DNA of 64,000 nt, taken from positions 1-64,000 of the forward strand of contig JAJRXX010000025.1 of the NCBI GenBank assembly GCA_024276075.1, in the 5' to 3' direction. This document shows positions 6,664 through 55,782 of the stretch, in pieces (the stretch's first letter is position 1; each line of letters starts with the position of its first letter). The notes below the pieces were generated by a model. That model saw only the letters and a list, made by a program, of their open reading frames with translations, was not told the DNA's origin and did not search any database. This DNA is from Planctomycetota bacterium. Lineage in GTDB: Bacteria > Planctomycetota > Phycisphaerae > Phycisphaerales > Phycisphaeraceae. The translations under genes were made by a program, and so were the position numbers.

Positions 6664-6768
6664 TAGAGCACCTTGCATAAATAATCGCCATGTCAGTTCT
6701 GGAGTAGGGCAGGTCATTGACCTGCCTTCTTCTTGGGGAGATGGAGAATAATGACGCAAGTTGCTCTA
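6664..6768 (+). mobile_element. 105-bp MITE-like element, copy 1
   Basis: Starts TAGAGCACCTTGCATAAATA and ends ATGACGCAAGTTGCTCTA, imperfect terminal inverted repeats of about 20 bases. It carries the internal palindrome GGCAGGTCATTGACCTGCC. Compared base by base with 39563-39667 (inverted), 104 of 105 positions agree. It has no coding capacity, so any movement would need a transposase acting in trans; none is visible in this window. Confidence 0.75.
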
Positions 6769-6769
6769 A

Positions 6770-6799
6770 AATGTGGCGAGGCCTCATCACACAGCCGCG
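6770..6799 (+). repeat. R5 direct repeat, copy 2, overlapping the gmd 3' end
   Basis: AATGTGGCGAGGCCTCATCA CACAGCCGCG. It starts two bases after the MITE end and runs into gmd on the opposite strand, where it supplies the TGA stop and the last Ala-Ala-Val residues. Confidence 0.7.
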
Positions 6800-7794
6800 G
6801 CAACGTCGTGTCGGCTATACCGCTTAAGGTCAGCTTCCACCATCTCCCGGACCAGCTCGTCGAAACCGATACGCTGCTCCCAGCCCAGCACCCGTTTAGC
6901 TTTCGACGCATCGCCCCGCAGGACGTGTTCCTCAGCAGGGCGGTAGAAACGCGAGTCGATCTTGACGTGCTCACGCCAGTCGAGCCCGACGTGGTCGAAT
7001 GCTGTTTCGCAGAACGCTTGCACGGTGTGCGTTTGGCCCGTGGCGATCACGTAGTCGTCGGGGGTGTCTTGTTGGAGCATCAGCCACATCGCCCGGACGT
7101 AGTCGCTCGCGTGACCCCAGTCGCGGTGGGCGTGGAGGTTGCCCAGTTGTAGCGTATCGATCTGGCCGAGCTTGATGCGGGCCACGTGGCTGCTGATCTT
7201 CCGGGTGACGAATTCCATACCCCGTCTGGGTGATTCATGGTTGTAGAGGATGCCGCAACTCGCGTGTAGGCCGTACGCCTCACGGTAGTTCCGCGTCATC
7301 TCGTAGCCCGCGGATTTCGAGATGCCGTACGCCGACCGGGGGTGGAAGGGCGTCGTCTCATCTTGCGGGACCTGCGTCACCCGCCCGAATATTTCCGATG
7401 ACGCAGCGAAATAGAATCGGCAATCCGGCGCGCCCTCCAGCACGGACGACAGCATGTAATGCACGCCATTGACGTTGGTGTTGATCGTCGTGAATTCGTC
7501 TTCAAACGAGTAGCTCACGAACGACTCAGCCGCCAGGTGGTAGCATTCGTCGGGTTGGATGCGGTGAATGGTCTTGTACAGGGACGGATACGATCCCAGC
7601 GACGCGGTGTGCAGGTGTAGCCGGTCAGCGATGTGCCGGATCCGGTGCATGCGTGTGTCGGGGTCTTCGATCGCCACTCGCCGAACGAACCCATGCACCT
7701 CATACCCTTGCTCAACCAACCACTCCGCTAAATAAGACCCGTCTTGGCCGGTGATTCCGGTTATCAGCGCCTTTTTAGGTGTCTTTTTAGGCAT
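6787..7794 (-). CDS. gmd: GDP-mannose 4,6-dehydratase
   Basis: 335 residues, the usual length of the short-form enzyme. Short-chain dehydrogenase fold with ALITGITGQDGSYLAEWL (NADP-binding Gly motif) near residue 9, HLAAESFVSYSFE, the catalytic YGISKSAGYEMTRNYREAYG (Y-x3-K), and NHESPRRGMEFVTRKIS, the Gmd-specific substrate loop. It converts GDP-D-mannose to GDP-4-keto-6-deoxy-D-mannose, precursor of fucose, rhamnose and perosamine donors, in the cytoplasm. It is on the strand opposite to the surrounding glycosyltransferases. No reductase or epimerase that would use the product is visible here. The extreme C-terminus is repeat-derived. Confidence 0.95.
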   Translation of the reverse strand: MPKKTPKKALITGITGQDGSYLAEWLVEQGYEVHGFVRRVAIEDPDTRMHRIRHIADRLHLHTASLGSYPSLYKTIHRIQPDECYHLAAESFVSYSFEDEFTTINTNVNGVHYMLSSVLEGAPDCRFYFAASSEIFGRVTQVPQDETTPFHPRSAYGISKSAGYEMTRNYREAYGLHASCGILYNHESPRRGMEFVTRKISSHVARIKLGQIDTLQLGNLHAHRDWGHASDYVRAMWLMLQQDTPDDYVIATGQTHTVQAFCETAFDHVGLDWREHVKIDSRFYRPAEEHVLRGDASKAKRVLGWEQRIGFDELVREMVEADLKRYSRHDVAAAV

Positions 7795-51191: not shown

Positions 51192-51223
51192 TTGACTCCG
51201 TACTTAGGTACGGGCCGTATAGT
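51192..51223 (+). promoter_or_regulatory. MerR-type operator-promoter
   Basis: TTGACT (51192-51197), the dyad CCGTAC TTAG GTACGG (51198-51213) and TATAGT (51218-51223). The 20-base spacer with the dyad between -35 and -10 is the hallmark of MerR-activated promoters, and the dyad closely resembles classical mer operators (GTAC-N4-GTAC core). It lies 25 bases upstream of merR, so it is probably autoregulated. Confidence 0.85.
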
Positions 51224-51248
51224 AACTGTAGAAGTAAGGCGAGGCTTT

Positions 51249-51668
51249 ATGAAACGATTGACTTCAGGTGAACTGGCCCGGCGTGCCGGGGTGAACGTCG
51301 AGACGATCCGCTATTACGAACGGCGGGGCCTTCTGCCCAAACCCCCACGGTCAGCGTCGGGATACCGGGTATTTCCGGATGAGGCATTGCGGCGGCTGCG
51401 GTTTATCAAGCGGGCGCAGGAACTTGGCTTTTCGCTCAAGGAGATTAAGGAGCTATTGGCGTTGAGCATGGATTCTGAAGCCACGTGCGAAGATGTCAGA
51501 AGCCGTGCGAATGCCAAGATCGATGATATCGAAAACAAACTCAGAATCCTGGCTGGGATGAAGGAGTCATTACAACGCCTTGTGACGGCCTGCTTGGATC
51601 ATGGTCAAACCGGCGATTGCCCCATACTCGACTGCCTCGATTGCTGCGATGGAGACGGATCATGCTGA
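51249..51668 (+). CDS. merR: MerR-family mercury-responsive regulator
   Basis: 139 residues from ATG 51249, with AGGCGAGG before it. HTH: LTSGELARRAGVNVETIRYYERRGLLPKP; then the coiled coil (SLKEIKELLAL). C80, C115 and C124 line up with the mercury-binding C82, C117 and C126 of Tn501 MerR (SMDSEATC, TACLDHGQTGDCP), and there are four extra Cys (C129, C132, C133, C139) in a Cys-rich tail. These cysteines and the operator suggest Hg(II) sensing; other thiophilic metals are possible. The gene overlaps the next by 7 bases and is probably transcribed from the promoter at 51192. Confidence 0.88.
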   Translation: MKRLTSGELARRAGVNVETIRYYERRGLLPKPPRSASGYRVFPDEALRRLRFIKRAQELGFSLKEIKELLALSMDSEATCEDVRSRANAKIDDIENKLRILAGMKESLQRLVTACLDHGQTGDCPILDCLDCCDGDGSC

Positions 51669-52444
51669 ACGTCGAACTGGTCTACGATAAAGATTGTCCC
51701 AACGTAACGCTTACGAGAAGGAACCTTCGCGAGGCGTTGGTTCAGGCCCACCTACCCGATCAGTGGGTTGAATGGGAGAATTCCGCATCGGACGCGCCAC
51801 GGTATGTACGTGGATACGGATCGCCCACGGTGCTCGTGAACGGGCGCGACGTGGCCGGCGTTGAACCGGTCGAAGGCGTGGCGTGCTGCCGACTGTATCA
51901 GTGGGCCGATTCGGCACAGCAGGGAGCCCCTTCTGTGACTGTGATTGCCGAGGCTCTTGAACGGGCGGGTCGACAGGTGGTTGCGGGCCGATGTCGACCT
52001 TTGTCATTGTTTAGAAAATGGAAGTCTGGTATCGCAGCAGTGCCTGCGGTGTTGATCGCGTTTTTGCCTAGCGTTACGTGTCCGGCTTGTTGGCCTGTGT
52101 ACGCTGCGGTGTTGTCGGCGCTGGGGCTGCCGTTTTTCGCTTATGACCGCTATTTATTGCCCCTCATGGCGGTGGCGCTAATTGGTGCGGTGGGGTCGGT
52201 GGGGTTTCAGGGTTGGCGGCGCGGGGCTTACGGGCCAACGGCGCTGAGCGTCATAGCGTCGGCGGGGATCGTCGTGGGTCGATTCGTCTTGCAATCTGAT
52301 GAGTTGTTTTATGTGGGCGTCGGCTTCCTGTTAGCCGCGTCGTTGTGGAGTGGTTGGTCGCGTCGGCGATCGGCCACCGCTACCTGTCCGTCGTGCGTTC
52401 CGATAGACAGCGGCGTTAACAATGTGAACGTCAAGGAGACATAG
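51662..52444 (+). CDS. Thioredoxin-like/membrane protein of a mer-like operon (MerC/MerT-like)
   Basis: 260 residues, start overlapping merR by 7 bases. Residues 1-105 resemble a thioredoxin-like domain: LVYDKDCPNVTLTRRNL, GSPTVLVNGRDVAG, and EGVACCRLY with a vicinal Cys pair (C75, C76), similar to small domains found next to mercury genes. Residues 120-230 have about four to five TM segments, the first loop containing TCPACWPVY (C140, C143), as in MerC/MerT-like transporters. A further CPSC lies at 242-245 on the C-terminal tail. I infer import of Hg(II) or organomercurial species and relay between cysteine pairs; a TM-coupled reductase is another possibility. Confidence 0.65.
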   Translation: MLNVELVYDKDCPNVTLTRRNLREALVQAHLPDQWVEWENSASDAPRYVRGYGSPTVLVNGRDVAGVEPVEGVACCRLYQWADSAQQGAPSVTVIAEALERAGRQVVAGRCRPLSLFRKWKSGIAAVPAVLIAFLPSVTCPACWPVYAAVLSALGLPFFAYDRYLLPLMAVALIGAVGSVGFQGWRRGAYGPTALSVIASAGIVVGRFVLQSDELFYVGVGFLLAASLWSGWSRRRSATATCPSCVPIDSGVNNVNVKET

Positions 52445-52446
52445 TC

Positions 52447-52716
52447 ATGTCAACCAAACGGAAGATCGAGGTTTTTAGTGCGGGGTGCCCAGCGTGCGAA
52501 GAAATTATTGCGTTGGTCAACAGGATCGCCTGCCCGTCCTGTGAGGTGGCGGTTCTAGATATGAACCAGCCAGACACTGAAAAGAGGGCCAGAGACTTGG
52601 GCGTCCGCACGGTACCGGCTGTAGCGATCGATAATAAGTTGGCGGCGTGCTGCTCTTGCGGAGGTCCCGACGAGGCCTCGCTACGCAGCGCGGGGATCGG
52701 GACGCCGATTGGATAA
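52447..52716 (+). CDS. Small thioredoxin/glutaredoxin-like Cys-rich protein
   Basis: 89 residues, AAGGAGA 8 bases upstream, starting just after the preceding stop. EVFSAGCPACEEIIALVN carries the active-site CPAC (C14, C17), then ACPSCEV (C29, C32) and ACCSCG (C68, C69, C71); TVPAVAIDNK is the cis-Pro loop of the thioredoxin fold. It may shuttle metal or reducing equivalents for the neighbouring membrane protein. No merA, merP or merB is recognised in the operon or in this window. Confidence 0.75.
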   Translation: MSTKRKIEVFSAGCPACEEIIALVNRIACPSCEVAVLDMNQPDTEKRARDLGVRTVPAVAIDNKLAACCSCGGPDEASLRSAGIGTPIG

Positions 52717-52768: not shown

Positions 52769-52839
52769 GGTCGTGTCCTGGTTTAAATATTGGTGGCGGT
52801 TCGTTATGGTAACGCTCGGTTTCAAACTAGGACACGACC
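52769..52839. repeat. 16-bp inverted repeat between the mer-like operon and xseA
   Basis: GGTCGTGTCCTGGTTT (52769-52784) pairs with AAACTAGGACACGACC (52824-52839) with one mismatch, 39-base loop. The interior (TTCGTTATGGTAACGCTCGG) resembles 48662-48690. It fills most of the gap to xseA; it could act as a terminator-like structure for the mer-like operon or be a small mobile repeat. Confidence 0.6.
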
Positions 52840-54378: not shown

Positions 54379-55173
54379 CTAAAAGTGACGGAAGAACGAC
54401 AGGATCAGTTGGGGGTCAAAGCTGTTGTCGTTCGACAGCGGGTAGCTGACGCCTACACCGATCTCCATGCTGTCGTTGCCATGCGGGCGGAATTTGATGC
54501 CGGGGGTGATATTGACCACGGTCTTGTTGTCGGTGCCGCTGACGACTGAGCTGCCGTCGAGTTCGATCAGGCCAATGATATTCGCGGCCAGGTGTGCTTG
54601 CAGGGCCAGGTTGAATTCGAGCTCCAGGTCCTCTTCGTCTTTGTCCGCGGCGGGTTCGTTGGTGGGGATGCCAAACGCTAGGAATGAGACGACTTCCAGG
54701 CCACCGTCTTTGTAACCAGCATTGATAAACGGCTCGATCTTCAGGACGCGATCACTACCGATGGCTTTTTCGTCGTCACCGGCAGGCAGCGAGAGTTCAA
54801 TACCGCCGCCGAGGACCACGCCCTTGTCCTCGAACACAAAACTAGCGGCTTTGAGGCCGACCTTGATATTGCCCACGTTGCTCTGGCTGTCGAGACTGGG
54901 TGGGTTGGTGAAGACGTAGGGGATGTCGATCTCGACGCTCAGGTTGCGGTTGAAGGCGTACTCGGCTTCGAAGCGGATCTCGTTTTCCTGGCCCGTGGCG
55001 TTGGTGTTGCGGAAGAAATAGTCCACGCGGAACTTGGTGTCGGGTGTGGGTGACTCGGCGATCAACGGGTGCGAAAAATGCAGGTGACTGGGTTGGGCTA
55101 ACGTGGGTTGCTCGTTTATGAAGATAGGTACCAACAAAAATAACGCAAAGGCAAAATGGCGCGTATTCATCAA
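54379..55173 (-). CDS. Outer-membrane beta-barrel (transporter-like) protein
   Basis: 264 residues with a signal peptide (MMNTRHFAFALFLLVPIFIN, cleavage near QPTLAQ). The body alternates polar and hydrophobic residues typical of beta strands: KFRVDYFFRNTNATGQENEI, FEAEYAFNRNLSVEIDIPYV, NIKVGLKAASFVFEDKGVV, and it ends in the aromatic strand QLILSFFRHF as a barrel should. It resembles the transporter/MetA family next to metal or phenol genes, but I cannot name the substrate. 123 bases separate it from an upstream Cys-rich protein gene on the same strand. Confidence 0.72.
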   Translation of the reverse strand: MMNTRHFAFALFLLVPIFINEQPTLAQPSHLHFSHPLIAESPTPDTKFRVDYFFRNTNATGQENEIRFEAEYAFNRNLSVEIDIPYVFTNPPSLDSQSNVGNIKVGLKAASFVFEDKGVVLGGGIELSLPAGDDEKAIGSDRVLKIEPFINAGYKDGGLEVVSFLAFGIPTNEPAADKDEEDLELEFNLALQAHLAANIIGLIELDGSSVVSGTDNKTVVNITPGIKFRPHGNDSMEIGVGVSYPLSNDNSFDPQLILSFFRHF

Positions 55174-55296
55174 TGAATCCTTTTATGCCGGCGCGATACA
55201 GATTATCGCTGTCTCGACAAAGAGACCACGCGCAAAACACACGACATCTGCGTGGTGCGGCACGGTCTTAAGTAACTTGGTTATGAGATTAGGCTG

Positions 55297-55710
55297 TTAG
55301 ATCGTGGCGATCGGGAAGGGCGGCGCTCGCTGTTGATGTGCACGCGAGTTGAATACGGGCTCAATGGTCTGTGGCAACGGTGCTGGCAACAGGTCCAGCA
55401 CGCCTAAGGCGATCAAGTCGTGATCGATAGTCGGCGGGGTTTGGAGCGTCGCGACAATGTGACAGACGGCGCATCGGCCATCGGGTTGGTCTGAGTCTGA
55501 ATTAGGGTTTGGCGTCGTGTTGCTGCCACAGCACGTGCTGGATTGGCCCGCTGAGGTGTTACGGGAAGCAGTGGACGAAGCGTGGCAGGACTCCGTTTGC
55601 GTGTTGACGCCAGGCAGCGGAACCTGCCCGCGCCTGTGGCTGGGCACAAAGACACCGAACCACAGCCCTAGGAATACGAGCATCGCGATGCGGAGCCTGT
55701 CCGTACGCAT
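55297..55710 (-). CDS. Small membrane-anchored Cys-rich protein (DUF2946-like)
   Basis: 137 residues from ATG 55710. An N-terminal hydrophobic segment (RIAMLVFLGLWFGVFV) is followed by a Ser/Asn-rich region with isolated Cys pairs (TCCGS) and GRCAVCHIVATL, then His residues. The CxxC-H element and the TM anchor resemble DUF2946-type proteins associated with copper or other metal systems. It is divergent from the gamma-carbonic anhydrase gene and co-directional with the outer-membrane barrel gene downstream, which suggests a metal-related pair; this is an inference. Confidence 0.5.
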   Translation of the reverse strand: MRTDRLRIAMLVFLGLWFGVFVPSHRRGQVPLPGVNTQTESCHASSTASRNTSAGQSSTCCGSNTTPNPNSDSDQPDGRCAVCHIVATLQTPPTIDHDLIALGVLDLLPAPLPQTIEPVFNSRAHQQRAPPFPIATI

Positions 55711-55782
55711 CAAGCGGATCGTACTGTGAGGCTAAGGCGTGTCAACCACCTCGTGCTTGGCGGTTTGGTTAGAATTGGGCAT

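Follow-up and report, generated by a model that had tools for sequence, protein, structure and literature searches.

Known mercury resistance is built around MerA. The window analyzed here, a 64,000-nucleotide stretch of DNA from a bacterium of the Planctomycetota, holds a conserved, mobile, mer-controlled cassette whose carriers are mostly without MerA, which raises the question of what these cells do with Hg(II). Judged from its sequence, the locus is probably a compact, mobile, Hg(II)-induced and MerA-independent cassette for mercury binding and transfer, a reading that is held here with moderate confidence. A broader claim is put forward only tentatively: that bacteria and phages possess a MerA-independent way of handling mercury, composed of a MerC-DF carrier and a Cys-rich thioredoxin, in which selenocysteine (Sec) can replace metal-binding cysteines.

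The operator-promoter, merR, a gene for a 260-aa protein and a gene for an 89-aa protein form one tight operon at positions 51192-52716 (Table 1). The -35 element (TTGACT, 51192-51197) and the -10 element (TATAGT, 51218-51223) are separated by a 20-nt spacer that contains the dyad CCGTAC-TTAG-GTACGG, and a GTAC-N4-GTAC dyad within a promoter spacer of 19-20 nt characterizes Hg(II)-responsive MerR sites. When up to 3 mismatches are allowed, the operator pattern matches the 2.88-Mb genome once and the reversed control not at all. The merR gene overlaps the 260-aa gene by 7 nt (ATGCTGA); the 89-aa gene, which is preceded by an AGGAG-type site, begins 2 nt past the end of the 260-aa gene. An Rfam search around the operon returned no matches. 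As in Gram-positive-style mer operons, the promoter lies upstream of merR and merR is the first gene, but the cassette is without merA, merB, merT and merP. The recurrence of this gene order and operator in many distant loci, together with the single operator in the genome, is more than chance.

Table 1. Features of the cassette in the window and candidate selenoproteins in related loci
Feature	Position	Strand	Basis
MerR-type operator-promoter	51192..51223	+	sequence reading; one match in own genome
merR-like regulator, 139 aa	51249..51668	+	TIGR02051 best family; Cys80/115/124 plus Cys129/132/133/139
260-aa fusion, DF-family thioredoxin-like domain and MerC-like four-helix membrane domain	51662..52444	+	profile matches, model
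DF domain, residues 4-98	51671..51955	+	NF049942 match; YDKDCPN motif, SPT turn, vicinal CC75-76
MerC-like membrane domain, residues 129-229	52046..52348	+	PF03203 match; CPACW in helix 1 (52079-52090)
89-aa Cys-rich thioredoxin-fold protein	52447..52716	+	PF13192, model, Foldseek
Candidate MerC-type selenoprotein	L039:4522-5244	-	TGA at conserved Cys; SelB and tRNA-Sec in genome
Candidate MerC-type selenoprotein	L040:4871-5320	-	TGA at conserved Cys; SelB and tRNA-Sec in genome
Candidate MerC-type selenoprotein	L041:4975-5352	+	TGA at conserved Cys; SelB and tRNA-Sec in genome

Among curated regulator families, the MerR protein scores highest with the mercury family TIGR02051 (140 bits), followed by ZntR (122.9), CueR (122.6) and CadR/PbrR (101). 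This score is under the curated cut-off of 150.85 bits, yet it is 17 bits ahead of the next family. The protein aligns with the MerR structures 4ua1 and 5crl, and three of its cysteines are in register with the Hg-binding cysteines of Tn501 MerR (5crl); four extra cysteines occupy the tail. The first of the three Hg-ligand cysteines is absent from the MerR proteins of two bacterial loci and one phage contig (L008, L009 and L068), so the sensor is not uniform across cassettes. The sequence-only reading had described the three mercury-binding positions and four tail cysteines of MerR, the 20-base spacer with its GTAC dyad, the close coupling of the two following genes, and the cysteine motifs CPAC, CPSC, CC and ACCSC in their products. 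All of these hold: CC, CPAC and CPSC are in the second protein, and CPAC, CPSC and ACCSC in the third. Its proposal of mercury-type regulation is supported.

The 260-aa protein begins with a domain of the DF family (NF049942, "Hypothetical protein DF", PMC13188914), which it resembles in its N-terminal 98 residues and for which Sec forms are known. The match over residues 4-98 (E 3.9e-11) reaches 42.8 bits, below the curated cut-off of 70, while relatives in L006 (94.7 bits), L007 (107.1) and L016 (96.8) exceed it; those above it include single-domain DF homologues in Zixibacteria (107 bits). Unlike the described family, the domain is fused to MerC in the window, or to MerT-HMA in L016, under a mer operator, and the window copy is all-Cys. 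No signal peptide is seen on the DF domain. Its predicted secondary structure runs beta-alpha-beta-alpha-beta-alpha, with pLDDT mostly 82-92 over residues 1-70, and this order, together with weak matches, weakly suggests a thioredoxin-like fold. When the full-length fusion was searched by fold, nothing significant was found.

The membrane half appears from its profile matches to belong with the MerC family. Residues 129-242 match the NCBI MerC family at E 2.6e-7, and PF03203 is the sole Pfam family matched, at E 2.2e-4 and 22-24 bits, below the gathering score of 27.6. In all 14 relatives that were aligned, the MerC half matches PF03203 (best E 1.1e-10) and nothing else in Pfam. MerC carries one Cys pair in helix 1 and a second in its cytosolic tail. 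In the fusion, the cysteine motifs are CC (75-76), CPAC (140-143) and CPSC (242-245), the last of which (52385-52396) lies just beyond the MerC-like domain. Structure prediction, which had been proposed as a check on the 260-residue protein, yields helices that fit four membrane passes after the N-terminal alpha/beta order, at lower confidence (mean 64). The positive charges at 104-121, 186-187 and 234-236 point to an N-in/C-in topology with both ends cytosolic. In that arrangement, CPAC would fall within helix 1 and CPSC in the tail on the cytosolic side, as in MerC. The modest-confidence model, the charge pattern and the alignment agree with four transmembrane helices, a helix-1 Cys pair and a tail Cys pair.

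These traits, and MerR control, are shared with the Tn21-type inner-membrane Hg(II) carrier MerC (PF03203; NF010318/NF033784). In contrast to that carrier, the window copy scores below the family cut-offs, bears a fused N-terminal DF domain and has no MerA in its operon or genome, and some relatives have Sec for Cys. The earlier observation that the operon has no MerA, MerB, MerT or MerP stands, but it missed the MerC-like domain, and the cassette is not free of known mer parts. It is a mer-type variant rather than a canonical mer operon: neither merT nor merP is in the operon, and merA was found in neither the operon nor the genome. MerC is a mercury uptake protein (PMC6416403), and the helix-1 Cys pairs of MerE and MerT are required for transport (PMC5715351).

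The third protein has seven cysteines and matches PF13192 (Thioredoxin_3) at 31 bits, over the gathering cut-off of 24.8. Its predicted model (pLDDT 84.6) matches thioredoxins in Foldseek at E 3.6e-4. It shares the thioredoxin fold and the N-terminal CxxC with other Thioredoxin_3 proteins (MTH895/ArsE-like), and differs from them in a second CxxC, a CC(x)C near the C-terminus and a conserved MerR/MerC partner. Across relatives, CPAC and CPSC are invariant in the fusions, as are CxxC, CxxC and CC in the third protein. The PF13192 and MerC family matches agree with the earlier suggestion of a membrane carrier with a thioredoxin-like relay. On plasmids, a 56%-identical homologue of the third protein adjoins merR-merT-merP-GDCCVxC in Burkholderia contaminans, and others follow merR in Halobacillus and lie beside merF in Stanieria; further plasmid homologues have copper genes or regulators for other metals nearby. 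No third protein was found in GenBank phages.

Cyanobacterial and Hymenobacter homologues of the third protein are found with copper genes or unrelated regulators, which counts against the mercury reading. It is conceivable that the cassette serves another thiophilic metal (Cu(I), Ag or Au) or general thiol stress and has borrowed a mer-like sensor, as would fit a MerR score below cut-off with CueR and ZntR not far behind, the missing first cysteine in some MerR copies, and the P-type ATPases with YHS domains or RND efflux genes that adjoin some cassette copies. However, the mercury family is the top-scoring curated family in all four cassette MerRs tested, the GTAC dyad and MerR Cys register are kept in most copies, and the MerC and MerT partners are mercury proteins. 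A different metal or general thiol stress is, on this balance, quite unlikely.

For the preferred reading, MerA-independent mercury binding and transfer, the following path may be proposed. MerR would sit on the GTAC dyad in the over-long spacer, and Hg(II) bound at Cys80, Cys115 and Cys124 would switch the operon on, as the residues and the operator suggest. The DF-MerC fusion would lie in the inner membrane with both ends inside. By homology and topology, its helix-1 CPAC would capture Hg(II) at or within the membrane, like the equivalent pairs of MerC, MerT and MerE, and deliver it to the CPSC of the cytosolic tail and to the fused DF domain. In the least certain step, thiol exchange with the fusion might bring Hg(II) to the third protein, which might buffer it or pass it on to efflux ATPases or the general thiol/FAD-disulfide-reductase system instead of to a MerA. 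In some relatives, selenocysteine would replace metal-handling cysteines. From sequence we infer that Hg(II) is both inducer and cargo, that it moves inward, and that the third protein accepts it. Counting against this explanation, beside the non-uniform sensor, none of the MerR, DF and MerC scores in the window reaches its curated cut-off, and mercury uptake by MerC without MerA should harm the cell.

An alternative is a split mer system, in which the cassette would be the uptake half and would supply Hg(II) to a mercuric reductase whose gene lies elsewhere, as the sequence-only reading had also considered. Separation of merR and merA is documented in Synechocystis, together with control by Slr0701 (PMC6741143), and the uptake role of MerC would suit such a division. 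The best MerA-like protein of the genome (L010, 392.7 bits) keeps the CLNVGC motif, but it belongs to NF004991, a generic FAD oxidoreductase family (824.7 bits, cut-off 620), and was rejected as MerA; it ends ...KKLFNTILALRR, without a C-terminal Cys pair, and has no mer operator. No protein of the genome matches MerA (TIGR02053) over the curated cut-off, and the genome has no second mer operator, so a search for merA elsewhere in the genome did not uphold the idea of a dedicated reductase. Among the 17 genomes that hold the cassette or a close variant, bona fide MerA is over cut-off in two (G434 and G435), a count to be read with the caution that metagenome-assembled genomes may miss plasmid-borne merA. 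These two proteins end in SCCAG and SCCV and are encoded in separate MerT-MerA loci, one with its own MerR in view. A split system is therefore unlikely.

MerB has no match in the genome, which is a weak negative because its profile found nothing in any control genome. HgcA is over cut-off in one of the 17 genomes, a member of the Zixibacteria, and could there point to a cassette that supplies Hg(II) for mercury methylation by HgcAB. With no HgcA match in the genome that carries the window, the missing co-occurrence largely refutes this reading, which is highly improbable. The genome also encodes four heavy-metal P-type ATPases, which, under the preferred MerA-independent reading, could contribute to efflux.

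The order merR, DF-MerC, thioredoxin-like gene is also found in a member of the Nitrospiraceae (L002), a deltaproteobacterium (L003) and a proteobacterium (L004), where the fusion is 40-49% identical and the third protein 64-69%. The suggested search of planctomycete genomes for the three-gene order recovered it in four further loci (L042, L043, L044 and L045). In Zixibacteria and an unclassified bacterium (L005, L007, L008 and L009), DF is a separate gene or absent. A mer-type operator lies upstream of merR in most related loci, which span five bacterial groups, two plasmids of cultured organisms, and phage contigs; weaker versions are seen in L003, L040 and L043. This recurrence in distant bacterial groups and phage contigs supports the earlier description of a little-described module. 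None of 36 other genomes of the same family matched in the cassette search, compared with 10 of 392 genomes of the phylum, and this patchy distribution suggests horizontal spread. A search within the phylum of another carrier found nothing beyond that genome. Among plasmids, the 260-aa protein matched in its DF half only, on two Rhodococcus plasmids, and the L004 fusion homologue had no matches. A tree of concatenated MerC and thioredoxin sequences is mostly unresolved; its sole firm grouping joins G071 (Planctomycetota) with Zixibacteria (support 100).

In a planctomycete belonging to the same order (L016), the gene after merR joins DF to MerT and an HMA (MerP-like) domain, and the operator is of the same class, which suggests that MerC and MerT interchange. 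Known MerTP fusions and the MerT-CopZ selenoprotein (NF033556, NF045683) likewise combine a mercury carrier and a small thiol domain under MerR control, and Sec MerT is known, but the cassette has MerC instead of MerT and a thioredoxin-like DF instead of HMA.

Several variants are observed as well. In a Phycisphaera locus (L006), the fusion is intact and the third gene (6750-6974, +) has lost most of its cysteines (YPAC, RPSG), which may reflect decay or an assembly error. One Rhodococcus plasmid (L029:6600-7360) has a minimal two-gene version, merR and a lone DF-domain gene with a mer-type operator, beside an ars operon. In L042, another mer-type operator lies ahead of a gene beside merR (1518-1886, -) whose Cys-rich product contains repeats of the motif CPGK.xCPLT; this protein is probably exported and is possibly an extra regulon member.

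Selenium binds mercury more tightly than sulfur. In three planctomycete genomes (G070, G071 and G224), the membrane protein gene has in-frame TGA at conserved Cys positions. G070 has three TGAs, two of them in the DF domain, at the CPN cysteine and the vicinal-Cys position, and one at the second Cys of CPxC. The corresponding readings are UPCCW in G071 and CPGUW in G224. By a crude estimate, random placement would put three TGAs on seven Cys columns with P of about 1.5e-5. All three genomes have SelB over cut-off and tRNA-Sec at 70-72 bits, where background tRNAs reach about 50, and the selB gene of G070 starts about 1.5 kb from the cassette on the opposite strand. Hairpins that might serve as bacterial SECIS elements lie about 12-15 nt past the TGAs, a plausible distance, but they do not stand out clearly from shuffled sequence (z 0.8 to -2.3). 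Because TGA falls on conserved Cys and SelB and tRNA-Sec are present in all three genomes, these proteins are probably selenoproteins. The genome of the window has no SelB and no tRNA-Sec over cut-off, and its copy contains no TGA-encoded Sec. A 2026 selenoproteome review table includes DF and MerT selenoproteins and lacks the MerC family (PMC13188914), although absence from one table is not proof of novelty.

Four IMG/VR contigs (L065, L067, L068 and L069) carry the cassette on the strand opposite to the phage genes, with the operator present in all four. It lies between terminase and portal genes in L067, adjoins tape-measure and tail genes in L065, and adjoins tail-fibre genes in L068 and L069. 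L065 and L067 encode DF-MerC fusions, with an extra HMA protein in L067, and L068 and L069 encode MerC alone. Probable Sec at metal-handling positions and carriage within phage structural clusters open the cassette to tests in simple hosts and give it a bearing on how mercury cycles in the environment.

Just 3′ of the operon, at 52769-52839, is a 71-bp palindromic element with 19-nt arms (89% complementary) and a 33-nt gap. It has no second copy in the window and could be a small transposon remnant or a terminator. Farther on, at 54379-55713 (-), are genes for a protein that resembles a beta-barrel (weak PF13557) and for a secreted protein with cysteines (weak DUF2946/DUF6153). Since the cassette is immediately followed by a PF13557 protein in both L008 and L044, a link between these genes and the cassette is possible.
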